DNA from: Carnobacterium jeotgali MS3
Lineage (GTDB): Bacteria; Bacillota; Bacilli; Lactobacillales; Carnobacteriaceae
Reading direction: 5' to 3'
NCBI RefSeq assembly: GCF_000745125.1
Contig: NZ_JQNF01000003.1
Span: forward strand, 248,001-312,000
DNA length: 64,000 nucleotides
A program made the translations under genes and the position numbers. The notes under the pieces were generated by a model, which searched no databases, had not been told where the DNA came from, and saw only the letters and a program-made list of their open reading frames with translations. Below, one piece after another: positions 13,751 to 36,950 of the stretch; position 1 is the stretch's first letter; each line of letters begins with the position of its first letter.

Positions 13751-13767
13751 TTAAAGGAGTGGTGGAA

Positions 13768-14685
13768 ATGATTTATAAAAAGCGTGAAAAATGTTTTAAG
13801 TTGCTTGTCTTAGAGTCTTTGAATGTTCGGACAAATTTATCTGAAGAAATTTACAATCAATATTTGAAGCAGATAAAAGGTTATGAAGGTGAGTGTTACT
13901 TCGATGCACTAACCGAGGCGTTAACTTGTGACTGCCTCATTTTGAATGACTTACCTTTGGAGATAAGTGGTACTGATTTTCAAATTGACACATTAATCAT
14001 CACCGCACGAGAGATTTTACTTTATGAAGTGAAGAATTATGGCGGAGAGTATTTATATAAAGAAGGATTTCTGGTATCTATTCCTTCTGGCAATTCATTC
14101 CACAGCCCTACAGAAAGAATCAATCGCCATACTTCCTTGTTGCAAAGCTTATTAGAATCACTTCAAATGAAAATGCCTATCAAATCTTTTGTGGCGTTTG
14201 TGCACCCTGAATTCATGTTGTACGACGTGTTAAATATATAAAAAACATTGGTACAAGCAACTTTTCCAAAGCATTTCAGGAAATTAAATGCGCAGTTAGA
14301 AACACTTTCTACCAAACACCTCCTACTTGCAAAAAAATTATGCGACCTCTCTTCACGTACAAAAACCTATTTAAATGGGTTACCTGAATATACTTATGAC
14401 GAGTGTACAAAAGGAATCATTTGTCCAAATTGCAGGCAATTCATGCCAGTGATTCAATATAAAAACAAAAAATGCAAATGTAAAATATGCGGATACAACG
14501 AAAAAGTTTCAACAACCATTTCAATACATGCATTAGAATACAAACGTTTGTTTCCAGAGAGAAAGTTAACAGTGTCTTCCTTATATGATTGGTGCGGAGG
14601 TGTTTGTCCAGTTCGGAGAATCCGCTCTGTCCTACAAAACGAATATAAATCTGCAGATGTAGGACGAGCAATATATTACGTCTAA
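13768..14685 (+). pseudogene. NERD-domain protein gene, interrupted by one in-frame stop
   Basis: This is the first plus-strand gene. The ATG at 13768 has AAAGGAG eight bases upstream. The N-terminal part is a NERD (nuclease-related) domain with GYEGECYFDALTE, DFQIDTLIITAREILLYEVKNYGG (shown here in two words: DFQIDTLII and YEVKNYGG), the Asp...ExK pattern of PD-(D/E)XK nucleases. A TAA at 14239-14241 ends the frame. The same frame continues at once for 146 codons, with two CxxC pairs (CPNC and CKIC, a zinc-ribbon-like segment) near the end. One point change explains the break, so it is recently inactivated or read through. The function of NERD proteins is largely unknown; many lie on mobile DNA. 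Confidence 0.8.
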
Positions 14686-14925
14686 CCAAAAACCATCTAA
14701 AAGAGTGACCTTTTAGATGGTTTTTGGTTAATTAGGGTCGTTACGTACCATATTGCTTCGTAAAAGATGACGTTACCGTACGCAAAACAAATTTTACTAC
14801 CATAAGTTTATTGTGGCAGTTAGGTATATGGTAGGCACTCCTATCTTAAGCACCGTATACTTCTTTATAAAACACCTATATGGTAGATAAACACTTCTTA
14901 ACTACCTTATTTATAAGAAATTCCC
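14675..14925. repeat. Direct repeat DR1 (left boundary of the island)
   Basis: About 250 bp starting with ATTACGTCTAACC is repeated at 26111-26361 at a constant offset of 11436 bp. I count roughly a dozen mismatches and no indels. It includes the last three codons of the NERD gene, its terminator, and three copies of the ATATGGTA motif (14741-14753 inverted, 14826-14838, 14878-14890). Confidence 0.9.
14684..14729. terminator. Bidirectional terminator after the NERD gene
   Basis: A perfect 19-bp inverted repeat (AACCAAAAACCATCTAAAA and complement) with an 8-nt loop starts on the NERD stop codon. The same hairpin recurs at 26120-26165. Confidence 0.9.
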
Positions 14926-14956
14926 TAATTTTAGTAAATCAGCGAACATAATCAAG

Positions 14957-14983
14957 CAAATGAAAATTTCTATTTTTCATTTG
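14957..14983 (-). terminator. Probable terminator of the island operon
   Basis: CAAATGAAAA pairs with TTTTCATTTG across the 3' end of the last island gene. The T-tract downstream on the minus strand is short, so it may be leaky. Confidence 0.45.
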
Positions 14984-15177
14984 AATAAATCAAAAATAGA
15001 AAATGTGGTTTTTTTATAAACTTTATTGTAAAGTGCTTTTTTGGGATTTTTTATCCATCCCATACCTTTTCTTCCATAGCCAGGTAAAAGTTTTCTTTTA
15101 ATCGCACGTTTAACTCTACCTGTAGTTCTTGCACTTATTGACTTTTTTATACTAGGTTTTCTTATTCCAATTTTCAT
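14977..15177 (-). CDS. Small, very basic protein, function unknown
   Basis: The 66-aa protein is rich in Lys and Arg, with the core KKSISARTTGRVKRAIKR followed by YGRKGMGWIKNPKKALYNKV. I have the impression of a recurring small-protein family in firmicute mobile DNA but cannot name it. ATG 15177 has AGGAGGAG seven bases upstream, which strongly supports translation. It is the last gene of the island operon, 58 bp after the glycine-rich protein. The charge suggests nucleic-acid or membrane-surface binding; that is inference. Confidence 0.7.
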   Translation of the reverse strand: MKIGIRKPSIKKSISARTTGRVKRAIKRKLLPGYGRKGMGWIKNPKKALYNKVYKKTTFSIFDLFK

Positions 15178-15235
15178 TCATTTACTCCTCCTACTGTTAC
15201 ACCTATTCTATCAAATTAATGCCATTAGTAATAAC

Positions 15236-15892
15236 TCATGACTCGTTTCTTGAAAATCCTCCACCATCTGTTGAAGTTAAGTCAACACTGGTGTTACCAT
15301 CTCCATCTCTCCAGTATTCATTAACAAATGCTCCATCTGCTCTTGTATAACTGTCTACATGATGCGGATCTACGAAACTTTCTGCTGTGGTTCCCTCACT
15401 GATATCGTCATGACCAAAGATACTTTCTCCGCTAACTTCAATAGTATCATCACCTATTATGTCCAGCCCATCTAGTATTCCAATACCAATAGCTCCAATA
15501 GCTGCGCCTTTTAATAATTTAGCTAAACCTTTTTTTATTTCTTGATTATCTCCAGCTGCTGCTGAACTAACAATATGATGACTGGTAGCTGCTACACTTT
15601 CAATACCTCTCCCAATCCCAGTTACCGTCTCTCCTGCTACACCACCAATATCTTTTAATCCCTTTTTTGCTTCTTGTTTATCTTGCATTACCGCTCCTTT
15701 AATTGTTTTATAAGTTCCCTCTGCTGCTTGCCCTACTAATCTTCCTGTGTTCTTTGTCGTTTGTTCTACGCCATCTCCAATTTCTCTAATAAAATCACTA
15801 TCGACTGCACCGCCAACAAACTTTACTGCCCCACCTAATAGAGCACCTGTAGCATGACCAGCTACTTCACCTAAACTTTTAATAAATCTCAT
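15236..15892 (-). CDS. Glycine-rich, glycine-zipper-like protein
   Basis: The 218-aa protein has repeated Gly/Ala-rich helices with small residues at every fourth position (HATGALLGGAVKFVGGAVDS; GLAKLLKGAAIGAIGIGILD). Two amphipathic repeats carry EIKKGL/EAKKGL words. The tail, from about residue 175, has HVDSYTRADGAFVNEYWR then DGDGNTSVDLT and ends GGGFSRNES. Similar tails occur in uncharacterised firmicute proteins of this type. No signal peptide is evident. The zipper helices could insert into membrane or pack with the dynamin-like proteins. ATG 15892 has AAGGAGAT. It lies 51 bp after the PLD gene. Confidence 0.7.
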   Translation of the reverse strand: MRFIKSLGEVAGHATGALLGGAVKFVGGAVDSDFIREIGDGVEQTTKNTGRLVGQAAEGTYKTIKGAVMQDKQEAKKGLKDIGGVAGETVTGIGRGIESVAATSHHIVSSAAAGDNQEIKKGLAKLLKGAAIGAIGIGILDGLDIIGDDTIEVSGESIFGHDDISEGTTAESFVDPHHVDSYTRADGAFVNEYWRDGDGNTSVDLTSTDGGGFSRNES

Positions 15893-15943
15893 TTCATATC
15901 TCCTTCATCTTTTCACTTTTTACTTGCTAGCTCATAGGTTTAA

Positions 15944-17323
15944 TTAAAAAGTAAACCGTGCTTTAATTACTTCAGTGGCCCATTCTTCACTTTCTATAAA
16001 AGTGCTTCCTTCTTTACGTAGATCTCCTTTATATTCTGCATCATAAGACAAAAAATTATAGCTTCCATTAATAACATATTTGTCGTCGCAGATTAATAAT
16101 TTTTCATGGGTTTGTTCATTCTCTATTTTTAGTAATCCATTGTACTTTTTACCTAGATTTCTTAATTCATCTGCAATTTCTTTTGATTTTTTGTCTCTTC
16201 CAGAAAAATTGACTTCATTTCCATCAGTAATACCATAAAGGATTCGGATTTCTACTCCGCACTTGAGTAGTTTCTCTATACTTTTCTTAAATGCATCATT
16301 AACAATAGTCCGGTTCAACCAAGGACTGATGATATATAAACTTTTTTGAGCCGTTTCTAGGTAATGCAGGAACAACCTTCTAATTTCCGTGTTCATAAGA
16401 TACTTAAGTATGATTACATTATTCACAGTGGTTATTTGAACTTTTTCATCATCTAATTTTTCAATTTTATCTGCTATTTCCGAAAGTTCATTTAGTACAT
16501 TATCACGCTCTTCAAGTGCGGTCGCTATGTCAAAATAATCACTGAAGTAACCTTCAACTAGTCTTTTCTTCAAAACTGCACTAAATTCTGGCTGAATTAT
16601 CTTTGTTACTGAATCGATAACAAGCACTTCTAATTCTTTCTCTGTGTCTGCATAAATTAACATTGCGTATTTGCGAAACAGCAGTTCTTTGCGAGGCATA
16701 TACTCAAAATCTTTCACATTAACTATCTTACTTATATTTAACCCTTTTTCTACATTCTTATTATGCATTTCGATATTTGTTAAAAAGTACTTTGATAACC
16801 GTTCGTAATCTTTCATATGTTCATAAACCGGAAATTTTCTCCCATCAATTAAAATCCCATCTTTTGCCTCTCTCACACGAGAAAACCCTTTTCTTTCGTA
16901 GGCAAGATACTCAACTTTATTAGTCTCGTTAATAACATCAAATAATATTGAAAGGTTTCCTTTTTTATTTAAACACTTAATTTTTCTAGCAAATAATTTT
17001 TCACCTTCATCTGATAAGTAAATTGATTCATTCTTATCATCTGTTACAAGAAAATTTTGTTCCAGTAATGGTTCAATAACTACATTTAAAAAATTAGCTT
17101 TCAGTGTTAAAACTTTTGCAATATCTGCTTTTCTATTGATACCACGTTGAATACATTTCCCAACAAATTCTTCTGCAACAGTCAAGTTTTCTTCGGATAT
17201 ATACGTTACCTCAATATCCTTTTTAAAAAAAGGAATCCAGATATCACTTGATCCCACCAAATGATATTCATTAAAAAAAGAAGAATACTTCTCATGTAAA
17301 AGATCGATATCACTATTATACAT
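15944..17323 (-). CDS. Phospholipase D-like protein with a single C-terminal HKD motif
   Basis: This 459-aa protein ends in a PLDc_2-like domain. SLYIISPWLNRTIVNDAF begins it near residue 335. The catalytic motif is at about 406-424: HEKLLICDD, then INGSYNFLS (HxKxxxxDx6GSxN). One HKD implies dimerisation to form an active site, as in PLD-type nucleases. The first 300 residues are unassigned, with a possible winged-helix portion (DIAKVLTLKANFLNVVIEPL). The ATG at 17323 overlaps the helicase stop by eight bases, so the two are translationally coupled. PLD proteins beside helicases occur in defence systems such as DISARM (DrmC). Nuclease rather than lipase activity is my inference. Confidence 0.85.
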   Translation of the reverse strand: MYNSDIDLLHEKYSSFFNEYHLVGSSDIWIPFFKKDIEVTYISEENLTVAEEFVGKCIQRGINRKADIAKVLTLKANFLNVVIEPLLEQNFLVTDDKNESIYLSDEGEKLFARKIKCLNKKGNLSILFDVINETNKVEYLAYERKGFSRVREAKDGILIDGRKFPVYEHMKDYERLSKYFLTNIEMHNKNVEKGLNISKIVNVKDFEYMPRKELLFRKYAMLIYADTEKELEVLVIDSVTKIIQPEFSAVLKKRLVEGYFSDYFDIATALEERDNVLNELSEIADKIEKLDDEKVQITTVNNVIILKYLMNTEIRRLFLHYLETAQKSLYIISPWLNRTIVNDAFKKSIEKLLKCGVEIRILYGITDGNEVNFSGRDKKSKEIADELRNLGKKYNGLLKIENEQTHEKLLICDDKYVINGSYNFLSYDAEYKGDLRKEGSTFIESEEWATEVIKARFTF

Positions 17324-20300
17324 CTTGTCTCACCCTCGAAAACTCTTCAATCCTTTTAACTGCAGCGTTTCCTCTCAAATGAACAATAGTATCATACAAC
17401 TTAGACAAATTACCTTTGTTTTGGTAAATGAAATTCGTATTTCCTATCACAAACATCAATTCTTGTGCACGTGAAAAAGCAACATTAAGTCTCGAATCGT
17501 GAACAATAAATCCAAGCTCTTTTCTTTGATTGTTTCGAACTAAGTTCATAATAATAATCTGTTTTTCTCTACCTTGGAATGCATCAATCGTGTTGACTTC
17601 AATTTCAAGATGCTTAAATTCCACAGTATTAATTTCTTTTTCCAAACGTTTTGTCTGTGCTTTATAAGGAGCAATAACTCCTACTGTTTTCTCTTCATTA
17701 AGGTTTTCATCTAGCCACATTAACAAATTAATCGTTCCTTCTACTTCTCCTATATTGTAAGGTGAACTGACTTCCTTGTCTTCTTGGTATATTTCCATGT
17801 CATCAAGAGTATCTATCCAGTAGAATGATTGTTCAAGTTCACTTTCTAATCCATGTGAGCGCTCTCTGATGTTATCTGCATCAAGCAATTCTCCATTGTA
17901 ATAGAAGTCCGATACAATTTTTGAAATATCACTACTCATTCGGAATTGAGTATTTAAAAACATTTTATTTGAAGGTTGAGCGTTCTCATACATCAAGCCA
18001 AAAAGCGAGGCTTTATATGTTACAATTTCCTCTCTGTCTATTTCTTCAGACTCCATTAACTTTTTCATTAGTTCTTTTTCAACATCTTGACTGATTTGTT
18101 TATGATCTCCCACAAGAATAATTTTTTTACCACGAATCATCGGAATTAATAATTCCAGACTGGATGCTCTCCCAGCTTCATCGATAATTAAATAGTCAAA
18201 TTCACTTTCTAAAAAATAATTATTATCCTTAGTATTAATACCAACACAAGTAGCACTAATCAAATTAGCTGTATCAATAAAAGCTTTTTCAAAAGAAGTT
18301 TGATAAACATTCATTCGTGAAGACCACTCTTCTTGAATATCACTTGATAGGTTATAAAATTCTATAAATTGCTTATCTTTATTTAATGATTCTATATACG
18401 CGTTGCATATATTAATATCTTTAGTAGAAATCTGATTAAAATCTTTGCACTCACTAATCAAATAACTACGAACGTGGTCATTATTGATGTGCTCTTGAAC
18501 TAGTTGATTTATTTGAGTATGTATCTCAGTGGCATTTATCTTTTGTTTAAGAAGTTCATCACAATGCCTCTTTATTTGTTCAAGATTCTTTTTTAAATCC
18601 GTTATTTCATCAAAAAGAACAATATCTTTCAATAAGTCAAACGTATTTTCAGGCAGCTTTCCATAGTTCCATTCAAATATTTGAGCTTGAGTATAAAAAT
18701 TTAAAAATTCTTTAAAATTGAATTCTGAACCTATAATAACGTTCAAGGGCTCTTTATTCAGTTCTAAAGCCATAAGAATAACATTTTTGGCTTTAGTTGC
18801 TTTTTTTGTTAATTCATTAAGCTTTCCGTTTTGTTGTTTACTTTTACTGGAAAAATGTTCTATCTGTGATTTTTTTTCTTGGTATTCATTCAGATAAGTA
18901 GTACAAATTTTTTCATATATAGTTACTTGACTTTCATAAGAAACACTATTTTTTTGTTGTTCCGCTTTGTAAAAAGATAGCTTTTGATTATAAAATTCCA
19001 ACGATTTATGAATGTTATCTTTCTCTTGTTTTAAACTTTCCATTTCATTTATTTCTTCTGTTTTAATATTCTTCAATTGAAAAATACAACTTTTAAATTC
19101 TTTAATAGCTTCTTTTTCGATTCTAGATACAAAGACTTTCGTTTGAAATCTAAATTGATTAATCAATTCATCGTGGGAATAACCTTCTGCTAGAATTTTT
19201 TTTATTTGAATTAACTCATTATCGTTGTTAGTTAAGCGTTGCTTCTTGCAGTCAATCTCATCAGCTACTATTACTTTCATTTCTTCAGAATCTTTTGTTT
19301 CATCACTAATTTTTTTTAATTCTTTAGTTGCTTTTTCAAGTTTTCGATTCACTAACATGAATGTATCGACTCTTTTGTAAACGAATTCATAATAAGGTAA
19401 TTTTTGTATGCGGGTCTCATAACTTTTTTTTATGCCTTGATACTGTTTTTTATTTTCTACTGTTTTTGTGACAATCATACTTTGTAGATTATCAACACGT
19501 TGTTTCAATAGGTATTTTTCATTTCCAAGCTCTACTTTTTCATCATTGCCTATTCGAATCGCATCAATTTCTTCATTTTCTCCAATTCTTTGCAATACAT
19601 TATCAACTGCCAAATGAGTTTGTGCAGATAATAGAATTTTATTTCCTTGCTTAGCTAAATACTGAATCATTTCGCAAATAACAGTTGTCTTTCCCGTTCC
19701 TGGAGGTCCTTGAATCAAAAATATATCCTCTGTATTTAGTGCTCCGAGGACACTCAAACGTTGATTATCATTTAATGATTCAAAGTTTGATGAAAAACTT
19801 CCCCTATCCAACTGCTTCATCTCAAATGAAGACGATTGAGCATTCACTACTTCCGGAATAAAAGTTTTTAAACTCATATTTGCAGTTTGATTATTGAACA
19901 GTTGTTTCAAAGCATTTTCTTCATTCCTCTTCTTTGCAAGACTGCCAATGTCATTGACCCACAAATAACCCTCTTCTATTCCAGAAAGTTGTTTAAGAAG
20001 TTTATACATATGCTTTATGTTATGAGTAATTGTTATTCTTTGCTTATTTCTATCAATCAATTGGATTTTCCCTATTTCGATTCCTTTAATATCTTCCATA
20101 TGAGAATAATTTGATTGAAATTTAGCGTTCCATTCTTCACTTGAACTAATGACTATGTTATCTCCAATTCGATATGTAAAGTCTCCTAGACTTACGTATA
20201 ACGTTATTTCTGTCATATCTGGCTTAAACTGGATTGATGAAAAAGAAGTGGTACTCTCAATCTTTTTTGTTTTGATTAATTCTTTTTCAAGTTTGGAAGC

Positions 20301-20747
20301 AATATCTTGAGTTTTCCAGTACTCTTTAAACTTTTTAAATTCTTTTTTATTAAAGGTATTTTTCTCAGACTCTTTAATAACCTGCTGAACAAAAGTGTCA
20401 TTCGGCTTTTTTTCAATATAATTTGCATCATTTAAAGTAATGATCGTACAACCTGACGAAAGTGACTCAGCATTTGAAAGATAAGATAAGTACTCACGAG
20501 TGGTACTTTCTTTTATTCGCACGGCTTTTATAGTATTCTTTTCCTCAGCCACTCTACATATTAAAGTATATTTTCCAGATATAATCCAGATATTTTCTCT
20601 AACTACAGTATATAGCATGCCTGATCCATCTGGATTAAATAAATCATTTAGGTATTGGATAGAAGATACATTTTTAATGCCCTTATTAAGCATATCTTCT
20701 CGTACGGTCTCCAAGACGGAAGAGAGTACAATCACATAATTAATCAT
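17316..20747 (-). CDS. Large SF1 helicase of the Upf1/DNA2 (AAA_11/AAA_12) type
   Basis: The 1143-aa protein has an unassigned N-terminal ~320 residues. Then come a Q-like motif (LNDNQRLSV, ~325) and Walker A (IQGPPGTGKTTV, 345-356). A ~450-residue insert rich in coiled coil follows. Walker B is YLIIDEAGRASS (~851), then motif III VGDHKQIS, motif IV NTQFRMSSDIS, VGVIAPYKAQT, motif V NTIDAFQGREKQIII, and motif VI LNVAFSRAQELMFVIGN. All helicase motifs look intact. The coiled-coil insert between RecA domains is unusual and suggests a partner, perhaps the GTPases. ATG 20747 has AAGGAGT; 14 bp after the second GTPase gene and overlapping the PLD gene. It acts on DNA or RNA; the substrate is unknown. 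Confidence 0.92.
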   Translation of the reverse strand: MINYVIVLSSVLETVREDMLNKGIKNVSSIQYLNDLFNPDGSGMLYTVVRENIWIISGKYTLICRVAEEKNTIKAVRIKESTTREYLSYLSNAESLSSGCTIITLNDANYIEKKPNDTFVQQVIKESEKNTFNKKEFKKFKEYWKTQDIASKLEKELIKTKKIESTTSFSSIQFKPDMTEITLYVSLGDFTYRIGDNIVISSSEEWNAKFQSNYSHMEDIKGIEIGKIQLIDRNKQRITITHNIKHMYKLLKQLSGIEEGYLWVNDIGSLAKKRNEENALKQLFNNQTANMSLKTFIPEVVNAQSSSFEMKQLDRGSFSSNFESLNDNQRLSVLGALNTEDIFLIQGPPGTGKTTVICEMIQYLAKQGNKILLSAQTHLAVDNVLQRIGENEEIDAIRIGNDEKVELGNEKYLLKQRVDNLQSMIVTKTVENKKQYQGIKKSYETRIQKLPYYEFVYKRVDTFMLVNRKLEKATKELKKISDETKDSEEMKVIVADEIDCKKQRLTNNDNELIQIKKILAEGYSHDELINQFRFQTKVFVSRIEKEAIKEFKSCIFQLKNIKTEEINEMESLKQEKDNIHKSLEFYNQKLSFYKAEQQKNSVSYESQVTIYEKICTTYLNEYQEKKSQIEHFSSKSKQQNGKLNELTKKATKAKNVILMALELNKEPLNVIIGSEFNFKEFLNFYTQAQIFEWNYGKLPENTFDLLKDIVLFDEITDLKKNLEQIKRHCDELLKQKINATEIHTQINQLVQEHINNDHVRSYLISECKDFNQISTKDINICNAYIESLNKDKQFIEFYNLSSDIQEEWSSRMNVYQTSFEKAFIDTANLISATCVGINTKDNNYFLESEFDYLIIDEAGRASSLELLIPMIRGKKIILVGDHKQISQDVEKELMKKLMESEEIDREEIVTYKASLFGLMYENAQPSNKMFLNTQFRMSSDISKIVSDFYYNGELLDADNIRERSHGLESELEQSFYWIDTLDDMEIYQEDKEVSSPYNIGEVEGTINLLMWLDENLNEEKTVGVIAPYKAQTKRLEKEINTVEFKHLEIEVNTIDAFQGREKQIIIMNLVRNNQRKELGFIVHDSRLNVAFSRAQELMFVIGNTNFIYQNKGNLSKLYDTIVHLRGNAAVKRIEEFSRVRQDV

Positions 20748-20761
20748 TATCCCACTCCTTC

Positions 20762-22759
20762 CTAACGTAATAAGTCATCGATTGTGTCGTCTACTGTTTT
20801 TACTTCTTCATATTTATTTTCCTCAGGCAATTTTATCTCTTCAAGTATTTTTTCTTTTTCAATTAAGTTATGAGAATTAGAATCTGATTTAAGAATTGAC
20901 AATTGGCTAACTTTATTTTCACCGGTAAAATTTCCTTGAATAATTTTTGCAGTTCTTTCCTGTTTTTGAGTTAAATTCGTTTCAAGTATATTTGAGTTGC
21001 TATCAAGATTTGCAATATACGTATCCATGTCTTTTTGCAGATTTATTAGTTCTTCCAACGTAGAACCTTTAAGTATAATATCTCCAAGTTGGCTGTATAA
21101 TGCTTCAAAGTACTCTTCGTTAGCAGCAGTCAACTGATTGACCATATCATTTAAGATATCTCGTACGTTGTTTTTTATTTCTTCAAATAATTTATATGTG
21201 GTCTCTTGAAGTTCTTTTATTTTTTTATCTTTATTTACAAATTTAATTGCTGCTCCAGTAACAGCACCCGCTATTAGAACTGGCGGAAGAACAGATCCTA
21301 AGGCTGTCCCTATGGTAACGGCAGCTGCATACGGACCAAGCACAGACGCATACGCTGAAACAGCTAATCCATAGGCTCCTCCAATAAATACACCCTTTTT
21401 CGCCCCTTCTACCAAATCTGAAAGAGCATCATCAGTTTGAATCAAAGAGAAATCTCCAATTGGATTAAACATTTCAAAAGAGAGTGTTTCCATATGTTGT
21501 TCTGCTTCTTTTTTGAACTTTTCTCCCATAACCTTTAGCGCATGTGCTCGCTCTTTTTCAGAGAAGTCTATCAGCTCGAGCCAAAAATCTTTTATAGATG
21601 TTGTAACATACTTCTCAGAAAAATATTCAGTCAGCATATTTTTGATTTCGCCAGTATTATCTTTTAAAATAGACTTGCTATTATCAGAAATAGCCTTTAG
21701 TACTACTGTTTTCTCTTTTTGGAGGAACTCATTGGCCAACCAGCTTTCTGCATCCTGCTTAATGGCTGAATTTATTTTATCTTGAAAATAGTCTGTATCT
21801 TCTTTCCGTCGGTTTAAGGATTCTTTGACAAAAGAGATTTCTTCAATCACTGCTTTACATGTCATTATTTCTTTTTGAACAAGTTGAAAAACTGAAGCCG
21901 AAACCGATTCTTCTTTCACTTCTATTGCTGCAATATCAATATTTTTTTCTAAGTAATTCAGTATTTCTACTAAACCAGATTCATTATATAATGTATCATT
22001 TCCAGATTTTTTACCTTCAAATGCCTTGAATCCAGATACAGGAAAAGCGGCCTCGACATAGAACCCGTACATATCATCAATAAAATCCATAATATCTTCA
22101 GTATTTTCATTAGCTTGGTCGATTCGATTGACAAGCATAATGATAGGTTTACCGCATTCTGCTACTTCCATGAGTTCTTCATCAATACCAACTTGTCCTA
22201 AATGGTGAACACTTAATACCCAAAGAACGACATCAGCTTTCTTAATAAATTCTTTTGTTGTTTCTTGGTTAGCAGCAGTAATTGTTTCAATTCCAGGGGT
22301 ATCAACTATCCTAATTTCTTTAAGCGTTTTTAGTGGATAAAGGAGTTGGATTTTTTCTATTTCTGCATAAAAACTTGAATTATCCCGATTTCTTTCTAAC
22401 GCTTGGTATAGCTCTTCAATATCCATTTTTTCGCTGGTTCCATCTTTTTTTAGAATCATTCCCTCTTTTTCTGATCCATAAGCAATTTCCATAATTACTG
22501 CCGTCGTTTCAGTTACACCAACTGGTGACAATTCTTCTCCCACTATTGCATTCAACAATGTAGACTTACCCGCTTTTACTTCACCCATAAGCACCACTTT
22601 AAGTGGATTTTTCCACGTTTCATTATAGTATTCCATATCACTATTATTTTTCAATAATACCGTTTTCACTTCTGGGCTGATAAAAGAGTGTTCTTGATTC
22701 AAGTCAATCGGGCGCTTTTGCAGTAATGTCAAAATGTTTTCTGTCAATTTCTCATTCAT
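20762..22759 (-). CDS. Dynamin-like GTPase B of the island
   Basis: This 665-aa protein is a bacterial dynamin-family GTPase. G1 is GEVKAGKST (59-67), G3 IVDTPGIE (151-158) and G4 NRID (211-214). G2 is probably the threonines in GVTETTAV. After a helical stalk-like region comes a long hydrophobic Gly/Ala hairpin (about 455-505: GGAYGLAVSAYASVLGPY and continuing through PPVLIAGAVTGAA), the membrane-inserting paddle found in such proteins. More coiled coil follows. ATG 22759 has GAGGAGGAAG. It is 37 bp downstream of GTPase A. Paired dynamins that work as heteromers are known (LeoA/LeoC, DynA-type), so a two-component membrane-remodelling machine is likely. Confidence 0.93.
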   Translation of the reverse strand: MNEKLTENILTLLQKRPIDLNQEHSFISPEVKTVLLKNNSDMEYYNETWKNPLKVVLMGEVKAGKSTLLNAIVGEELSPVGVTETTAVIMEIAYGSEKEGMILKKDGTSEKMDIEELYQALERNRDNSSFYAEIEKIQLLYPLKTLKEIRIVDTPGIETITAANQETTKEFIKKADVVLWVLSVHHLGQVGIDEELMEVAECGKPIIMLVNRIDQANENTEDIMDFIDDMYGFYVEAAFPVSGFKAFEGKKSGNDTLYNESGLVEILNYLEKNIDIAAIEVKEESVSASVFQLVQKEIMTCKAVIEEISFVKESLNRRKEDTDYFQDKINSAIKQDAESWLANEFLQKEKTVVLKAISDNSKSILKDNTGEIKNMLTEYFSEKYVTTSIKDFWLELIDFSEKERAHALKVMGEKFKKEAEQHMETLSFEMFNPIGDFSLIQTDDALSDLVEGAKKGVFIGGAYGLAVSAYASVLGPYAAAVTIGTALGSVLPPVLIAGAVTGAAIKFVNKDKKIKELQETTYKLFEEIKNNVRDILNDMVNQLTAANEEYFEALYSQLGDIILKGSTLEELINLQKDMDTYIANLDSNSNILETNLTQKQERTAKIIQGNFTGENKVSQLSILKSDSNSHNLIEKEKILEEIKLPEENKYEEVKTVDDTIDDLLR

Positions 22760-22796
22760 TTTACTTCCTCCTCATGTGTTTTATCCTACCCGTTAA

Positions 22797-24833
22797 TTAA
22801 GAAAGAATCAGAGACGTAATAGGATCGTCAAATATAAGATTTTTTTGCTCGAATTTTTGTAAAGCCTCAGTTCCACATTCTTGTATACGTTTGGAGGAAT
22901 CCATTACTCTAGCTAAGTCCTCACTATCAATGGTATAAAGTTCACAAAACGATTTTTTCAAATGTTCCGTAACTTCATTTTCAGCTGTCTTTTGCAATCT
23001 TTGCAAGAACATTTTGTATTCAACCCATAGGCTGTGCTTAATTCTATCTGATTCATTTAAAAATGAATTCATTGTATTTTTCCGAGCTTTATTACTAAAG
23101 TAAGCACCAGCTCCTGCGCCAATCAATCCTCCAACTGGTCCAAATATCAATCCAACACCAGCCGAATAAGCCGTGAATTTACCAATACTAGGCATAGTCA
23201 CATTGAGATTTGTCTTGACTTTAGTACTAGACAAAGATGGTAGATTAATTGTGACGCCATAGGACTTATCCAGATACTTATATTGTGTAAAATGGTTTTC
23301 TCGGATAATTTCTTGCGTACGTCTTGAAATATCTAAATGTGCTTTTTCCATAAAAGCTCCCAATTCATTTAAAAGAGTGGGGTGTTTAAAAATAACTTCT
23401 CTTACATATTGTTTTTTGTGAGTTTCATTCGTTAAAGTAGTTAAATGCTCTAAATTATATACAAGGTCCTTAGCAAATGACTCAATATAACTGTTCATGT
23501 AACTTTTATATTCCTTTGTTAGTCGCTTAGTTTCTTCAACTAATGAATCATTTGCAAGAATTAAAGCCTCAGAAAGTTTCTCGGTATCTTTTTTTAGATG
23601 CACCTGATACATTTCTATAGTAGTTTTCATATCACGATTATAGATACTGCAAGCTTCATTCTTTTTTTCACACTGAATCGTCTTAGCGTCTTGAAAAAAG
23701 GTATATTTTATTTCATCCAAAAGATTGTTACGTCCACTCTCAACCATAAGCTTTATGTCGTTCTTTACAACTCCTTCATAAGCCCTTAAAGCTGAATAAG
23801 GCATTATTTTGTTGAAACGATCTCCATATATACGCTCAGCATCTAGTAGGACTTGTTCCCTTTGTCCTTCTATTTTGTCAACTAAGTCAATTCTGTTCAG
23901 TACGGCAATCATATTTTCTGTTGCCCTCTTCCCTCCCATTTCTTGGAGAGATTCATCGAGATCCTTTAGTAGTCTGTCCGAATTTTTTGCAGATATAGCG
24001 GTTGCATCTAAGAGCCAAATAACACCATCAGATTTATGGTAGTATTCCTGGACATTATTTCTTACTTCTCCTGAAAAATTTTCTTGATTTAGTCCTGGAG
24101 TGTCAACAATACTAAACTGATTTAAAAATGGTGCATTCGGGATTCCCCAACGAACTTCAACGATATCAGAATAGTAGACTTCATCGCGTTCCAGCTTTAA
24201 TTTAAGTTCCTTTTTTTCTTTAGGCCCTAACTTATTATTAAGTATGTACTCGTTCATTTTTTTCTTAACCACTTGCTTAGATTCTTTTGTTTTATTCTCT
24301 TCCTGACTTATTAAAATTTGTGCATCAGCTTTTGAGTACTGTTTTACAGCACCATTTTTATAGACAATGCTCACTTGGTCAACGTTTAAATTCCTTTCAA
24401 AGATATCTATTTTCCAAGTCATTGGCCGTATATTTTCAATAGCATGTTTTTCTTTTGTTCCTAACAAACTATTAATCAACGTAGACTTTCCGTAATTCCC
24501 AGGACCCATCACAAATAATTTAAACGGTTTTTCTAAGTCCTTCTCTAAATTTTGGTACAGAGGAATGATAGAAGATACTTTATCATAAAGACGAGAAGTG
24601 TAATTGCTTTTACTTTCACCAAAGACTATTTTAGTCAAAGATGGTATATTATGTTCTATCTTGTCAGAGATAGAACACAATTGAGTGAATTCTCTAAAAT
24701 ATTTTTCAGAAGAGTTTCGGTAGAAACTGATTCTTTTTCTTGTAGCATGCTCAATTGATTCTTTGTTCTTTTGAGAAAGTAACTCTAGTAGATGAACATA
24801 TTGTTCGGTCATCTTTTTTTCAGTTTGTGTCAT
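22797..24833 (-). CDS. Dynamin-like GTPase A of the island
   Basis: I use the ATG at 24833 (678 aa, MTQTEKKMTEQ) because TAGGAGGA lies just upstream; a longer frame to 24851 overlaps it. G1 is GPGNYGKST (110-118), G3 IVDTPGLNQ (242-250), G4 NRID (313-316). A ~70-residue charged insert sits between G1 and G3 (KTKESKQVVKKKMNEY). The C-terminal half is helical, with a short glycine-rich membrane hairpin (GLIFGPVGGLIGAGAGAYF). The sequence differs clearly from GTPase B, so this is an old pair and not a fresh duplication. The pairing resembles the Eleos (LeoA/LeoBC) defence family in concept; homology to those proteins must be tested by profile search. Confidence 0.92.
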   Translation of the reverse strand: MTQTEKKMTEQYVHLLELLSQKNKESIEHATRKRISFYRNSSEKYFREFTQLCSISDKIEHNIPSLTKIVFGESKSNYTSRLYDKVSSIIPLYQNLEKDLEKPFKLFVMGPGNYGKSTLINSLLGTKEKHAIENIRPMTWKIDIFERNLNVDQVSIVYKNGAVKQYSKADAQILISQEENKTKESKQVVKKKMNEYILNNKLGPKEKKELKLKLERDEVYYSDIVEVRWGIPNAPFLNQFSIVDTPGLNQENFSGEVRNNVQEYYHKSDGVIWLLDATAISAKNSDRLLKDLDESLQEMGGKRATENMIAVLNRIDLVDKIEGQREQVLLDAERIYGDRFNKIMPYSALRAYEGVVKNDIKLMVESGRNNLLDEIKYTFFQDAKTIQCEKKNEACSIYNRDMKTTIEMYQVHLKKDTEKLSEALILANDSLVEETKRLTKEYKSYMNSYIESFAKDLVYNLEHLTTLTNETHKKQYVREVIFKHPTLLNELGAFMEKAHLDISRRTQEIIRENHFTQYKYLDKSYGVTINLPSLSSTKVKTNLNVTMPSIGKFTAYSAGVGLIFGPVGGLIGAGAGAYFSNKARKNTMNSFLNESDRIKHSLWVEYKMFLQRLQKTAENEVTEHLKKSFCELYTIDSEDLARVMDSSKRIQECGTEALQKFEQKNLIFDDPITSLILS

Positions 24834-24942
24834 GAGAGTCCTCCTATTCATATAAAAATCATTCTATATGATTGTATCTCTTATTAATGCTTTATATATA
24901 TTTAATAATTTCCTATACTGTACAATTTTAATAGCCAGATTC

Positions 24943-25539
24943 TCAGAAAATAGCTATTATAATAAACACACCAATCAATGTAAAAATAGACCATTTCTTT
25001 ACAGTACTCTCTATTTTAAGTTGGACTGTTTCTTCTTGTTGTATCATTTTCAGCAAGATGATGTGCTCTAACTTATCGATTCTTTCATTATTTTTTACAA
25101 CTAATGATGATAATTGTTTGATTGAATTTTTATTTTCTGTTTCTAAGTATGAAATTGCATTATCTAATCTATTTTCCACTATCTTTGTTTGTTCATCTAT
25201 CTTTGATTGGTCATTATTCACTTCAAATCCATTCAGCACACGTTTTAACTCAAGTTTCAAATTTTGCAGTTCATTTTTAACTTTTTGAATCCCATCAGAT
25301 TCTGTTCGTAATTTTGACACTACTCTCTCAATTTCAGGAACCTGTTTTTTTATAGTGACAGAAGCCTCTCTTATGGATTGATTGACTGTAGAATCCATTA
25401 CTTCTGTACTAATATCTTTCAGTAATTCTTTGAATTCTTGTTGTAGATTTTCTTCTGTTTTAATTTCATTTTGCAAATTTCCTGAAGAGTTTTGTGATTT
25501 AAATCCTGTATGTGTATTTTGTTTTATTGGCATTCCCAT
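24943..25539 (-). CDS. Coiled-coil protein with a C-terminal membrane anchor
   Basis: The 198-aa protein begins MGMPIKQNTHTGF at ATG 25539, which has AAGGAGAAA upstream; longer in-frame starts lack a ribosome site. Most of residues 30-175 is predicted coiled coil by heptad pattern (EIERVVSKLRTESDGIQK, ELQNLKLELKRVL). The last 20 residues are a single hydrophobic anchor (IFTLIGVFIIIAIF) with almost nothing after it, a tail-anchored layout with the bulk in the cytoplasm. It is the first gene of the island operon, 109 bp before GTPase A. It could recruit or sense for the dynamin-like pair. No family name is recognised. Confidence 0.75.
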   Translation of the reverse strand: MGMPIKQNTHTGFKSQNSSGNLQNEIKTEENLQQEFKELLKDISTEVMDSTVNQSIREASVTIKKQVPEIERVVSKLRTESDGIQKVKNELQNLKLELKRVLNGFEVNNDQSKIDEQTKIVENRLDNAISYLETENKNSIKQLSSLVVKNNERIDKLEHIILLKMIQQEETVQLKIESTVKKWSIFTLIGVFIIIAIF

Positions 25540-25551
25540 AATGTTTCTCCT

Positions 25552-25710
25552 TAATGATATAATTTGTATTATCTTTAATAATAAGCGAAGCACAAATTCT
25601 GTTACTTTCTTATTTCATTATGCATAATAGTCACACAAACTTTATTGTTTGCATATTTCTTAAATAAAAAAAACCAACGACTGTAAGAACAAGTCCTTTA
25701 AGCCGTTGGT
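25552..25710 (-). promoter_or_regulatory. Insulating terminator (25669-25710) and upstream region of the island operon
   Basis: On the minus strand ACCAACGG and TCGTTGGT form a hairpin with a long loop followed by eight Ts, so the island operon is shielded from upstream transcription. Between it and the first gene, TTGTGC and GATAAT spaced by 16 bp are the best promoter candidate; the match is modest. Confidence 0.45.
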
Positions 25711-26110
25711 ATAATTTTAAAAGTTGAAAAATTCATTTAATATTCCTACAACTTTTTAGCAGTTGTTTTATAGCTATACTAGATAAACTAATGAGTTAAA
25801 TAATAACTGCCAGAATTCTTCACAATTCAGTATGAAATTTTAATTTTTGTTAATCATTTAGAACTGATTTTAATGAATAAAAATAAATAACAAAAGAAAT
25901 TGAATACAACTTTATTATAAGGTTCCATTCATTGAATGTAAACAAAATCCGAGTGTATTTACTAGTCTATGCGAGACATTTTTTTGATTAGAGTTAGTCT
26001 TTTTATCTGTAGAAAAATGGACCATTTTATAATTAAATGATCCATTAAACAACATTGAAATGTAGCTCCTGAATTTTTCGGTATCGAATGATAAATAAGA
26101 AAATAAATAC
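25711..26110. other. Intergenic stretch inside the island's right end
   Basis: AT-rich and without a gene I can support. A 65-codon minus-strand frame (25915-26112) has no ribosome site, and its start abuts the direct repeat, so I do not call it. Confidence 0.4.
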
Positions 26111-26361
26111 ATTACGTCTAACCAAAAACCATCTAAAAGAGTAACCTTTTAGATGGTTTTTGGTTGATTGAAATCGTTACGTACCATATTGCTTCGTAAA
26201 AGATGACGTTACCGTACGCAAAACAACTTTTACTGCCATAAGTTTATTGTGGCAGTTAGGTATATGGTAGGCACTCCTATCTTAAGCACCGTATACTTCT
26301 TTATAAAACACCTATATGGTAGGTAAACAATTCTTAACTACCTTATCTATACAAAAATTCT
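26111..26361. repeat. Direct repeat DR2 (right boundary of the island)
   Basis: Second copy of the ~250-bp repeat at 14675-14925. It carries the 19-bp terminator stem (26120-26165) and the three ATATGGTA-type motifs at 26177-26189 (inverted), 26262-26274 and 26314-26326. No NERD coding sequence precedes it, so similarity begins abruptly at ATTACGTCTAACC. Confidence 0.9.
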
Positions 26362-30099: not shown

Positions 30100-32532
30100 C
30101 TATTTCTTCAACACGCCAATCACTTTTCCGTTAATCATGACATCCTCAGCATTCATCTGGATGGGTTCATAATTCGGGTTTTCTGAGATAAGCAGTATGG
30201 AGCTGCCCATCAACATGAACTTCTTCATGGTCGCTTCTTGGTCAATCAGCGCGATGACAATATCGCCATTGCTGACGGATTCCTGCTTATGGACAATAAC
30301 TAGGTCACCTTTGTCGATGCCCGCGCCAATCATACTATCTCCGGTCACTTTCAGGGCAAATGTGTGCTGAGGTTGGATGACCCATTTTTCCATCAGCAAA
30401 ACAGAATCTTCATACTGCTCGATGGCCGTTGTCGGAATGCCTGCCGCCACATCTCCAATAATGGGAATTCGGAGATCCACCGCACCTTCCAGTGTTAGAT
30501 TCGTAGTAGGGTCGACAACTTCAACTATTGTTTCATCTTCTTTATCTTTGAGATAGTTGTACGAAACTTGATGACGCAAATCCATATACGTATGCTGCTT
30601 TTTGGTAGCTGGCAGGAATTGCGGCTGACAAGGCGGAACATCACTAACTCTTTCTCCATTGCGGTCAACAATTTTGACTTCGATGCCGTTGGTCACTATG
30701 CCGTATCGTACATGTGGATTAGCCATTATGTACGATTTCAGTTGTTCCATAGCCACATCAATTGGACTCGCAAATGATTTAACTTCCGCAAAGATGTAAG
30801 GAATCTTCTCCCCTTTATGCTCGATTGTGACCGCAATATCTACATAACCTCTCTTGGAAAACAGTTGGACAGGATATTCCAATTGTAGAAGTTCAAGCGG
30901 ATAACCAAATGTCTCATTCAATTCTTTCATCATCCACTGCCGGACGACTTCTTCTTTGGCATTGACATCTACAACCTTATCAGTCAATTTGTAATCCTGA
31001 ATCGCTATCGATTGGAACGGGTGAAATGAAGCATCTTTTATCATTCTGAGTGCCTGGTTATCGATTTCTTTGATAAACTTGGAAGGTCGTTTCACAGAAG
31101 TCATATACAATAGTTCATTAGCTCGAGTCATTCCAACATATAAGAGTTTCCGTTCTTCTGAATCGAGAGAGTCATCATCATCCAACCGGTGACGGGTGTT
31201 TGGAATGACATCTTCATCCAAATGAATAAGGAAAACTACTTTGAATTCCAGTCCTTTTATCGAATGCATAGTGGTCAGTTTTACAGTATCTTGTTCGAAA
31301 TGCGGTTCATTTTGCGCTAACAGTTCGCAAGGAATACCTGCTTTATCCAAGGCCACAGCAGCACTTTCAATCAACCTCTTTTCTTTAGCGACAATACAGA
31401 TTTCCCTTAAGGCATAGTCATTGGTCAGCTCCTTGATTTCATTCACATAGTATTCAGCATGTTGTTGGGAATTAGCGAAAAATCGGTAGATGGGCGCGTG
31501 TCCATGCCGGTCAATTAGGGAAGGCTTAACAAAATCTACATTTCCTTTAATTTGCTCGTCATTCTCAATCAGTCCATAGGCGGCTTTAGAAATTTCGGTT
31601 GTCGTCCGGTAGTTTTTGGACAGTGTCCGGGACTTCCCACTCATGTCATACCCTAGCGTAGTATAAGGACGTCCCTTACCAAGCCAAGAATGAGAATAAA
31701 TACTCTGGGTATTATCCGCCACAAACATGATAGACGCATAACTCTTTTCGGCATGTAACTGTTTAATGAATTTCAATTGCACTTTTGACAAATCTTGACT
31801 TTCATCAATAATGACATGAGTATACCGTGGTTGGTCGTGCTCAGCCGCTTCTTGAAGAGACAGGTTGTTCATTGTCTTGAAGTCTACCATTTTTTTATCC
31901 AACAATATCTGGCTGTACAATTCCATCAAATCATAAATGGCAGCTCGTGTCTGGGATTTCTTATTTAACTTCTGCGGACTGTTTGCTTGCGACCCACTAG
32001 CTCTACCGATCCGATCTATTTCTTGATACGTTTCCAAGTCTGGGATATCACATGACTGAATCCAGTCAATCTCATCTAACAGAAAACTACTGTACTTAGG
32101 TGAGAGCAACTTAATATCGGGATATGTCTCTTTCAATTTCAGAATAGCGCGCTGCAATGCATTTATTTGATCAGAAAACGCAGCTATCTGGTAATGTACT
32201 TTGTGCCTCTTTTGGTAATTCTTAAAAAAGGCAAACATCAATTTGTCAATATTTTGCATATGTACTTTTCCGCTAGTACTGAATAACCCTAGCAATTCTT
32301 CACTTTCCGTCGATTCCAAATGATCATATTGGTACTTGATGAAGTTCAGCAAGGTTTTGTTAAAAGTCACCAGTAGAATGCTATCCTCTTCTTCAGGGCA
32401 ATAGTACTCCTGAAGAAACGACAGACGGTGAATAGCAACAGTCGTTTTCCCTGAACCGGCAACACCTTTGATGAGGGAATGGCCGCTTGGTTCAAGTTCG
32501 ATAATTTTGCGCTGTTCAATGTTTAATTTCAC
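30100..32532 (-). CDS. UvrD-type helicase / PD-(D/E)XK nuclease / LexA-like autopeptidase fusion
   Basis: Three modules are visible in 810 aa. First, an SF1A helicase: Walker A GVAGSGKTT (23-31), Walker B IIDESQDLS (241-249), TTMHSIKGLEFKVVFLI (motif V) and LLYVGMTRANELLYM (motif VI). Second, about residues 520-640, an HsdR-N-like nuclease core: RGYVDIAV with Asp565, then FAEVKS with Glu583 and Lys585. Third, from ~689, a LexA/S24 peptidase: cleavage-site GDVAAGIP (Ala697-Gly698), nucleophile Ser733 in VTGDSM, general-base Lys770 in EATMKKF. All LexA catalytic residues are kept, but there is no HTH. GTG 32532 with GAAGGAGC is the start. RecA-stimulated cleavage would release the C-terminal tail; this is inference. 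Confidence 0.88.
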   Translation of the reverse strand: MKLNIEQRKIIELEPSGHSLIKGVAGSGKTTVAIHRLSFLQEYYCPEEEDSILLVTFNKTLLNFIKYQYDHLESTESEELLGLFSTSGKVHMQNIDKLMFAFFKNYQKRHKVHYQIAAFSDQINALQRAILKLKETYPDIKLLSPKYSSFLLDEIDWIQSCDIPDLETYQEIDRIGRASGSQANSPQKLNKKSQTRAAIYDLMELYSQILLDKKMVDFKTMNNLSLQEAAEHDQPRYTHVIIDESQDLSKVQLKFIKQLHAEKSYASIMFVADNTQSIYSHSWLGKGRPYTTLGYDMSGKSRTLSKNYRTTTEISKAAYGLIENDEQIKGNVDFVKPSLIDRHGHAPIYRFFANSQQHAEYYVNEIKELTNDYALREICIVAKEKRLIESAAVALDKAGIPCELLAQNEPHFEQDTVKLTTMHSIKGLEFKVVFLIHLDEDVIPNTRHRLDDDDSLDSEERKLLYVGMTRANELLYMTSVKRPSKFIKEIDNQALRMIKDASFHPFQSIAIQDYKLTDKVVDVNAKEEVVRQWMMKELNETFGYPLELLQLEYPVQLFSKRGYVDIAVTIEHKGEKIPYIFAEVKSFASPIDVAMEQLKSYIMANPHVRYGIVTNGIEVKIVDRNGERVSDVPPCQPQFLPATKKQHTYMDLRHQVSYNYLKDKEDETIVEVVDPTTNLTLEGAVDLRIPIIGDVAAGIPTTAIEQYEDSVLLMEKWVIQPQHTFALKVTGDSMIGAGIDKGDLVIVHKQESVSNGDIVIALIDQEATMKKFMLMGSSILLISENPNYEPIQMNAEDVMINGKVIGVLKK

Positions 32533-32945: not shown

Positions 32946-34282
32946 GAGCGTCAATAATTTTGTGTAAATAAATCGTCCTTCTGCAAAATAATTAGTTACT
33001 CAGTAAACATTGAAACTAATGTATCGGTTACTTGTTGGAAACCTTTATGGCTTCTGTTTAGAAATTTTTGATTGTATGTATCAAAAATGCTGATTAGAAA
33101 GCGTTCTAGTGATTCTTCATTTTGAAACTGCTCTTTTCTGCGGCTGTACTTTTTAATTTGCTTATTGAAAGACTCGATTAGATTGGTTGAGTAAATGGTT
33201 CTACGAATACTGGGTGGAAACTCATAAAAAGTCAATAAATCTTGGTTTTCTATGAGTGACTGCGTCACTTTAGGATAGTTTTTCTTCCATTTCTCAATCA
33301 TACAGGATAAGAATGTATTCGCTTCTTCCTTTGAGTTAGCTTGATAAACAGCCTTAAAGTCATCACAGATTTCTTTTCGGTCTTTGACACGTACTTTATG
33401 AGCAATATTACGAGATACATGGATACAACAATGCTGATATTTTGCTTTAGGATAAATTTGTTGGATGGTATCTTTCATGCCTTTTAAGCCATCCGTAATA
33501 AAAAGCAAGACTTCTTAAACTCCTCTGGAGTTAATATCCTGTAGCAGCTCATTCCAAACGTATGTTGATTCAGTCGGAGCAATCGCATAACTCAGTACTT
33601 CTTTAATGCCGTCTTCTCGTATACCAATGGCAATATAAATCGCTTCTTTGGATACGGTTTGGCGTTTTAATGGAATATAAGTAGCGTCCATAAAAATAGC
33701 GACATACTTATCATTTAAGGCTCTGGATTTAAAGGCGTTTACTTCTTCAGTCAGAACTTTAGTCATGTTGGACATGGTTTGTGGAGTATAGTGATGCCCA
33801 TACATTTTTTCGATTAAATCAGCAATTTCAGACATCGTAACACCTTTTTCGAATAAATGGATAATAGTGGTTTCCAATGTATCGTTTGTTCTTTTGTAGG
33901 TTGGTAAAGTTTGTTGTTTAAACTCACCATTACGATCTCTAGGTATTTCCAATGTTAATTCACCATATTCGGTTTTGATTGATCGAAAGTAAGAACCGTT
34001 TCTCGAATTACCTGAATTAAAACCAGTGCGATCATATTTTTCGTAATCTAAAAAAGCCGTTAATTCAGTCCGTAGGAGTGTGTTTATCGCTTTTTCTAAG
34101 TGCGAACGGAATAATTCATTTAAATCGCCTTTAGTGACTAGAGTTTGCACAATTTCTGTAGTAAAATCATTCATAGGGAAGTCCTCTTTTCTGTGAATTG
34201 GTTGTCGTTAACTTTATTCTACAGAAGGGACTTCCTTTTTTGTATGGATTTTTTCATTTACACAAAATATTTTACACTCTCA
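32946..34282 (-). mobile_element. IS256-family insertion sequence (defective)
   Basis: About 1.34 kb bounded by imperfect inverted repeats. The left end (32946-32972) and the complement of the right end (34253-34282) share ATTTTGTGTAAAT, preceded by GAGCGT and GAGAGT respectively. It encloses one transposase frame broken by a stop. I see no convincing 8-bp target duplication. Confidence 0.8.
32996..34174 (-). pseudogene. IS256-family (mutator) transposase, one in-frame stop
   Basis: The frame would encode about 392 aa. The N-terminal part (from ATG 34174) includes the first catalytic Asp in IFMDATYIPLKR. After NSRGV a TAA at 33515-33517 interrupts. The same frame goes on with EVLLFITDGLKGM (second Asp), the CCIHV region and the Glu in STNLIESFNKQIKKY. 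One nonsense change (for example from CAA or GAA) explains the break, so the element is recently dead or depends on a helper in trans. Confidence 0.9.
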
Positions 34283-34346
34283 ATGTTAATTTAACTATGA
34301 ATAGTATGTTTTTTTATATACTTACTTATTCTTTCTTTATTTATTT

Positions 34347-34781
34347 GAAGGTCAAAATTTTTTTGGTGGTAAAAACAATACTGCTATTGGCCTATAGTTA
34401 GCAGCAATCCATAAAGGAAAATAAATTTCTCTTGTATCTATGGCTGAATTAGTTTCGTTATTAAAAACTGAAAGTTATGTAAGAAAATCTGAACTGCGAT
34501 TAATGCGTATCAGATTTTCAGAGGTAGTGATTATCGATGACATGGTGTTTATGGCCATGAAAAAAAATGAGGCGAATTTATTTTTTCAACTTGTCAGTGA
34601 TTTGTACGAAAAAAGTGCCATTATCCTAACCTCCAATAAAGGTCCGTATAATTGGAGTAAGATGCTTGGAGCTCATAGTATCGCAACAGCAATTCTTAAT
34701 CGTCTTCTCCATCGCTGTGAAGTTATCCATATGGATGGAGAAATACATCCATTGAAAAATAGAGAAACCATATTTGATTAA
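34347..34781 (+). pseudogene. Decayed IS21-family istB fragment
   Basis: The frame reads like an IstB ATPase from just before Walker A: NFFGGKNNTAIGL, stop, LAAIHKGK, stop, ISLVSMAELVSLLK. It continues with VVIIDDMVFMAM (Walker B), ILTSNKGPYNWSKM and LNRLLHRCEVIHMDGE. Two internal stops, a damaged Walker A and no 5' part show it is dead. It differs from the intact istB at 36951, so it comes from another IS21-type element. The IS256-type element lies immediately upstream and may have cut it. Confidence 0.8.
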
Positions 34782-34811
34782 TGAAAGTGCACAATCTTAG
34801 TTGACAGTTAA

Positions 34812-36923: not shown

Positions 36924-36950
36924 AAATGTATGCCGACATTCTTTCTCTTT

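Follow-up and report, generated by a model that had tools for sequence, protein, structure and literature searches.

A candidate antiphage cassette in Carnobacterium jeotgali joins a conserved dynamin-like triad to a kinase-less, Mokosh-like helicase-PLD pair

Published Mokosh type I is a stand-alone two-gene system defined by an N-terminal Ser/Thr kinase on MkoA, DISARM consists of Drm helicase/ATPase proteins plus a methylase, and Eleos pairs one LeoA with one LeoBC dynamin. To our knowledge, the antiphage mode of bacterial dynamins is still largely open. Here we analyze a seven-gene cassette of Carnobacterium jeotgali MS3, found within 64,000 nucleotides of contig NZ_JQNF01000003.1 (positions 248,001 to 312,000, hereafter the window), in which relatives of such systems stand side by side: a coiled-coil-type protein (CC or CC-TM), two unlike dynamin-like GTPases (DYN1 and DYN2), an SF1 helicase (HEL), a single-HKD PLD protein, a glycine-zipper protein (GZ) and a basic peptide. 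A preliminary description of this DNA had called the set unfamiliar and supposed that its genes travel together. Neither idea is supported, since profile searches with PADLOC models (2023 copy) match HEL and PLD to Mokosh MkoA and MkoB, and DYN2 to LeoBC and LeoA, while the helicase-PLD pair is present at two of 17 dynamin-pair loci and the basic peptide recurs in phages and plasmids. The seven genes are not a fixed unit; what we find instead is a conserved triad, CC-DYN1-DYN2, with varying partners. Our results moderately favor the hypothesis that the cassette was acquired horizontally and acts as an antiphage operon, in which a dynamin membrane platform would be coupled to an exchangeable nucleic-acid unit.

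The triad is the most constant part of the system. Fifteen loci came from a pattern scan of the species-genome collection, and the non-redundant set of DYN1-DYN2 loci used throughout numbers 17 (the window, L022, L023, L025-L029, L033-L037, L040, L045, L046 and L059). Dropped from it were a short fragment (L030), other dynamin clusters (L031, L032, L047, L060), a three-dynamin cluster on a plasmid (L102), contigs already counted (L038, L039, L041-L044) and a second, interrupted copy of the pair in genome G395 (L024, contig G395:C33). DYN1 precedes DYN2 on one strand at all 17 loci and adjoins it at 16, the exception being L029, where a gene of 368 codons lies between them; at 15 of the 17 a coiled-coil-type gene stands directly upstream of DYN1. 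Since homologues elsewhere keep the DYN1-DYN2 order, the gene arrangement in the window is more than chance. A single hydrophobic segment (residues 178-198) closes the 198-residue CC-TM of the window, in line with the tail anchor proposed earlier. Judged by eye in the alignment, its N-terminal motif is common to 14 other loci, as is the hydrophobic tail, and half of these relatives (7/14) also match it by BLAST at E < 0.01. By sequence comparison, then, coiled-coil-TM, DYN1 and DYN2 constitute a conserved triad that is distantly Eleos-like.

Both GTPases carry the Dynamin_N domain (PF00350; 3.5e-25 for DYN2, 2.8e-10 for DYN1). The likeness to Eleos and LeoABC lies in two adjacent, different bacterial dynamins. 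By profile, DYN2 matches both Leo models (LeoBC 8.6e-21, LeoA 2.9e-18). The window differs from Eleos in that its DYN1 matches neither, and in the added coiled-coil, GZ, helicase and PLD genes. The window DYN1 is an exception within its own family, seeing that LeoBC is matched by seven of the eight aligned DYN1 (A1) proteins; all eight aligned DYN2 (A2) proteins match LeoBC and LeoA alike. The predicted folds of both resemble BDLP, IniA, mitofusin/Fzo1 and the Campylobacter dynamin pair, and that of DYN1 also LeoA (DYN1 versus BDLP, Foldseek E 1.8e-14; DYN2 versus Fzo1, Z 28.2, and versus BDLP, Z 24.1), with hydrophobic stretches at about residues 559-586 of DYN1 and 456-509 of DYN2. The Campylobacter pair (5OWV/5OXF) likewise consists of two unlike dynamins: DYN1 aligns with 5owv_C at Z 18.2 (494 residues aligned, rmsd 8.9) and DYN2 with 5owv_A at Z 22.3 (409 aligned, rmsd 26.2). 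For a possible corresponding complex in the window, the pointers are the folds and partly agreeing trees, in that both GTPase trees group the window with L033 and L034 (100/99 and 99/97) and the close pairs agree.

The distribution of these GTPases is patchy. DYN1 was found in 1 of 395 genomes of the order and in 11 of 398 in a phylum sample, where seven of the ten others have the same DYN1-DYN2 pair; by profile it was found in 3 of 398 genomes of a class sample, one of them with a different dynamin cluster. Our genome searches scored two or three candidates per genome, and all such frequencies are lower bounds. Four scans of viral contigs (queries P0006, P0003, A1 and A4) gave no relative, and plasmid records gave no match to DYN1 and only distant matches to DYN2 (75 records, each covering less than 80% of the query).

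The second component consists of the helicase and PLD proteins, which by sequence are kinase-less relatives of Mokosh MkoA and MkoB. HEL matches MkoA (PDLC03920) at 1.3e-111 over profile positions 350-1103 of 1112, contains AAA_11 (5e-41) and AAA_12 (2.4e-47), and resembles the PDB structures of SMUBP-2, DNA2 and UPF1. PLD matches MkoB (PDLC03922) at 1.7e-40 and PLDc_2 (PF13091) at 4.7e-12, with its HKD motif from residue 406; no solved structure matched it at E 0.1. As in Mokosh, an AAA_11/AAA_12 helicase gene is followed by an overlapping PLD gene. Two differences set the window apart: its pair is embedded in a run of dynamin-module genes, and its helicase (P0004) has no Pkinase match in Pfam at E 0.1. 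Among nine MkoA-type proteins scanned with Pfam, an N-terminal Pkinase was found in those of L051, L099, L100 and L101, and none in those of the window, L036, L103, L052 and L053. The kinship is distant, the closest compared rows reaching at most 28% over 403 columns for the helicase and 23% over 388 for PLD. In the phylum sample the MkoB model was matched by 11 of 393 genomes at 1e-8 (G423, G541 and the window's own genome below 1e-20) and the helicase query by 4 of 398 at 1e-40. At L052 (8295-12840) and L053 (6277-10792) a kinase-less MkoA-like helicase is followed by a gene of about 250 codons without Pfam match that is not a PLD gene. The preliminary description saw in the PLD-helicase neighborhood a likeness to DISARM, and a weak DrmC match (5.6e-8) does exist. 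However, MkoB is matched much more strongly, none of the seven cassette proteins matches a methylase or a further Drm protein, and we rejected a DISARM identity.

What accompanies the triad varies from locus to locus. At L033, L034, L037 and L040, DYN2 is followed by a gene for a GZ domain fused to a Colicin-DNase/WHH nuclease (PF12639 at 1.5e-24 to 1.1e-26, plus PF14414). A locus of Bacillus enclensis has this CC-DYN1-DYN2-GZ::DNase arrangement. The N-terminal domain of the window GZ matches these proteins (L040 3.7e-25, L034 2.1e-11, L033 3.7e-10, L037 9e-7), and Pfam finds no nuclease domain in the window GZ itself (P0002). Given a nuclease-less GZ and a helicase-PLD pair placed between it and DYN2, the simple reading is a nuclease swap in the window lineage. 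In Natroniella (L036) the order is helicase-PLD-CC-DYN1-DYN2 in one tight run. There the PLD groups with a PLD of a cyanobacterial plasmid (100/99), and the helicase falls in a four-row clade (100/99) that excludes that of the window; the helicase and PLD trees have few starred forks and long branches, and only these two groupings were used. From them, the simplest reading is that helicase-PLD joined the triad twice independently, in the window and in Natroniella. Finally, in G482 (L027/L105, contig G482:C2) the triad forms the end of a type III-B CRISPR operon and is immediately preceded by a CARF gene, in the order Csx1-Cmr1-Cas10-Cmr3-Cmr4-Cmr5-Cmr6-CARF-CC-DYN1-DYN2. The first ATG of the CC reading frame lies one base past the CARF stop, although the true start may be further in, and an array of about 15 CRISPR repeats and Cas4-Cas1 and Cas2 genes lie nearby. 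The G482 CARF gene had no match in G395, which shows little because the G395 dynamin contig starts inside the CC gene. The likeness to type III-B systems with CARF effectors is confined to this single locus, and the window operon differs from them in having no cas gene; cas-type matches among the seven cassette proteins are at chance level (WH_III-A 0.014 to PLD, Cas10 0.059 to the coiled coil). One report describes a Pseudolactococcus defence island with type III-A CRISPR and LeoABC together (PMC13335696).

Several results weigh against a coupled machine. The proximity of the modules may reflect defence-island stacking. The type III CRISPR unit occurs at 1 of the 17 loci, GZ::DNase at 4 and GZ alone at one more (the window); the other loci have no demonstrated partner, their neighbors being annotated only in part. 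Mokosh-like pairs also occur without a dynamin matched (L051) or annotated (L099, L100, L101, L103) in the stretch seen. A 6-kb plasmid of Psychrobacter carries the GZ domain in the absence of dynamins, and a Pontibacillus plasmid has the GZ C-terminal motif (3e-3) in a neighborhood where no dynamin is annotated. The window helicase and PLD sit on long branches, the DYN1 and DYN2 trees disagree at deeper forks, and the GTPase models have mean pLDDT values of 74.1 and 73.6, with membrane-facing segments below 50. The loci were, moreover, collected by searches seeded with the window family, and the set is not exhaustive. It could be hypothesized that the cassette is a composite of two independent systems, Eleos-like dynamins and a kinase-less Mokosh-like pair, each of which acts on its own. 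The 15 of 17 triad loci with no helicase-PLD pair shown and the dynamin-free Mokosh-like pairs speak for such independence, as does a Bacillus cereus survey in which Dynamins/Eleos and Mokosh are treated as distinct systems (PMC11811056). Against it stand the second, tightly spaced union in Natroniella, the position of helicase-PLD inside the operon between DYN2 and GZ rather than alongside, the absence of a DNase from GZ in the very lineage that has PLD, and the single base that separates the triad from the CARF gene in G482. We regard separate action as rather unlikely.

In another explanation, the dynamin module would serve secretion or vesicle release, on the model proposed for LeoABC and toxin release, and would export GZ-tethered nucleases or bring them to competitors. 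Vesicle-associated secretion has been proposed for LeoABC (PMC4159319), the nuclease domains on GZ proteins are of the polymorphic-toxin type, and a Tox-GHH protein is encoded further downstream in Natroniella. However, the maps, read without a homology test, show no recurrent small immunity-like neighbor after the four GZ::DNase genes, the window GZ is without a nuclease domain, and the Mokosh-like and type III-B neighbors are hard to account for; delivery to competitors appears very improbable. A membrane-stress or housekeeping module with chance neighbors is improbable as well. Work on DynA, a bacterial dynamin of B. subtilis, reports a function in membrane surveillance, and some triad neighbors look ordinary, such as the M48 peptidase gene right after DYN2 at L022 and, by eye, a sigma-factor-like gene at L046. 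On the other hand, the patchy distribution, the insertion between repeats described below and the defence-type partners at several loci do not suit such a role, and the same source describes DynA membrane clusters, later lysis after infection and limited phage spread (PMC8844932).

Returning to the coupled antiphage operon, we suggest how it might work. The membrane module would comprise the tail-anchored CC protein, the two unlike GTPases and the glycine-zipper protein. By analogy with the Campylobacter pair, DYN1 and DYN2 probably hetero-oligomerize, and CC may serve them as membrane anchor or adaptor. Upon infection, the GTPases would assemble on the inner membrane, and the nucleic-acid module, that is the kinase-less helicase and the overlapping single-HKD PLD nuclease, would engage and cut phage RNA or DNA. 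The exchangeable partner would be a GZ-fused DNase in the nearest relatives, helicase-PLD in the window and Natroniella, and a type III-B CRISPR/CARF unit in G482. The polarity we favor is that the dynamins occupy disturbed membrane and the partner destroys nucleic acid there. The reverse, with sensing by the nucleic-acid unit and membrane breach by the dynamins, is almost equally likely and would fit the CARF case better.

More speculatively, the CC-DYN1-DYN2 triad may serve prokaryotic immunity in general as a plug-in membrane arm, recruited separately by type III-B CRISPR/CARF units, kinase-less Mokosh-like pairs and GZ-tethered DNases, that couples nucleic-acid recognition to membrane remodelling and includes a dynamin effector of CRISPR signalling; we put this forward tentatively and would not yet rely on it. 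With dynamins and adaptor constant and the partner changing, the partner would indicate the type of signal or target with which the dynamins work, and the CARF-linked copy predicts a cyclic-oligonucleotide trigger. If true, one machine would unite nucleic-acid immunity with CRISPR signalling and with membrane remodelling, and a dynamin would be added to the CRISPR-linked effectors. In the open-access literature we found nothing that joins dynamin, type III CRISPR and CARF, nothing that treats Eleos together with GIMAP proteins and phages, and nothing on the cassette's combination, the latter judged largely by titles. The parts of the cassette are relatives of known systems, and it is the modular pattern, especially the CRISPR- and DNase-linked triads, that merits specialist attention. 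DYN1, CC and GZ of the window had no credible match in PADLOC and are candidates for models missing from that copy.

Two lines of evidence concern acquisition. First, the seven genes are an inserted cassette (11.4 kb) between direct repeats of 251 bp (Table 1), 94% identical to each other and the only full-length copies found in the genome. Secondly, the cassette was found in none of five other genomes of the genus searched with the helicase and DYN1. Two of these (G049, G065) have the glycerol kinase, NERD-gene region and regulator without the cassette, and both window repeats align there to one overlapping stretch at 67-73% identity; in G057 and G081 the NERD region is absent too. In G119 the site (L073 1695-14341) is occupied by another insert, some 12.8 kb long, with, by eye, a sortase, a 3309-residue LPXTG-type surface protein and a regulator. 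The chromosomal gap that holds the cassette is a variable site. None of the seven cassette genes encodes an integrase; recombination at a 250-bp shared sequence, with which the repeats are consistent, is a candidate route of insertion.

The order of the seven genes and their common strand are as first described (all on the minus strand, 14.98-25.54 kb), and so are the two distinct dynamin GTPases, the SF1 helicase and the single-HKD PLD, by Pfam matches and by intact active-site motifs (G1/G3/G4 in both GTPases; helicase motifs I, II, III, V and VI; one HKD). The tight gene run, the defence character of its families and the joining of dynamins to nucleic-acid enzymes also stand, and CC and GZ are real components. 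Spacing of 14-37 bp applies to two of six junctions (DYN1-DYN2, 37 bp; DYN2-helicase, 14 bp), and the 8-bp helicase-PLD overlap is confirmed; the remaining gaps are wider, namely 51 bp (PLD-GZ), 58 bp (GZ-basic peptide) and 91 bp (CC-DYN1), the last becoming 109 bp if DYN1 is initiated at the ATG that forms its seventh codon and, as judged by eye, has the better ribosome site. Promoter-like sites (53 versus 54.4 expected) and terminator-like sites (5 versus 4.0) are at chance level, so that a single transcript is something we infer. No Rfam family reached its gathering score between 11 and 30 kb of the window. A further 65-codon reading frame lies at 25915-26112.

Table 1. Positions in the window of the cassette genes, the flanking repeats and the gene at the insertion site
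Feature	Coordinates	Strand	Remarks
NERD-domain gene at insertion site	13759..14241	+	PF08378 2.1e-15
Left 251-bp direct repeat	14670..14920		includes hairpin after NERD gene
Basic peptide, 66 aa	14977..15177	-	phage/plasmid family; probable hitchhiker within cassette
GZ, glycine-zipper protein, 218 aa	15236..15892	-	N-terminal domain common to GZ::DNase proteins
PLD, MkoB-like single-HKD protein, 459 aa	15944..17323	-	PADLOC MkoB, PF13091, HKD
HEL, MkoA-like SF1 helicase, 1143 aa, long charged insert	17316..20747	-	PADLOC MkoA, AAA_11/AAA_12
DYN2, dynamin-like GTPase, 665 aa	20762..22759	-	PF00350, LeoBC match, fold
DYN1, dynamin-like GTPase, 684 aa (678 from ATG at 24833)	22797..24851	-	PF00350, BDLP fold
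CC-TM, tail-anchored coiled-coil-type protein, 198 aa from ATG	24943..25539	-	reading frame extends to GTG at 25593
Right 251-bp direct repeat	26106..26356		94% identity to left copy

The basic peptide looks like a phage-type hitchhiker. Its family is represented in 90 phage and 17 plasmid records, the phages being those of Streptococcus, Paenibacillus, Enterococcus, Lactococcus and others (e.g. SM1 gp2, phiEf11), and no relative was found among the other dynamin loci compared; on these grounds we rejected it as a part of the system.

The GZ protein has wider connections. Its N-terminal domain also matches L061 (1.1e-14), a locus without dynamins. Its C-terminal motif, YTRxDG...YWRDGDG, recurs in the last small gene of three-dynamin clusters (L060, 2.8e-14; L102, by eye). 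Such clusters with a small last gene were seen at L060 (6444-13791), L102 (3960-10908) and L031 (9929-17523), and the last gene has a YTRxDGTYV-type motif in the first two and encodes, by eye, a repetitive, GG-rich protein in L031.

Other neighbors of the triad were not counted as partners. They are, in addition to the peptidase gene at L022, an RNase H-type gene 238 bp upstream of CC (L025), SbcD-type and LmuB/Mad3-matching genes two and three genes after DYN2 (L026), and two candidate defence-type genes with PADLOC matches, one to PDC-S41 (2.4e-105; L028, 10623-12482, about 1 kb upstream) and one to PDC-M72B (6.1e-14; L059, 7253-8251, 100 bp upstream).

Further along the window, about 4 kb from the cassette, a minus-strand gene (30100-32532) encodes an 810-residue protein in which a UvrD helicase is fused to an HSDR_N_2 nuclease-type domain and, at the C terminus, to an S24 (LexA-like) peptidase domain. 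Between the cassette region and a cluster at 39-64 kb, which we take to be of sialic-acid/exopolysaccharide type, lie reading frames at 32996-39180 that, by eye, are presumably a transposase in two adjoining frames and an IS21-type pair.

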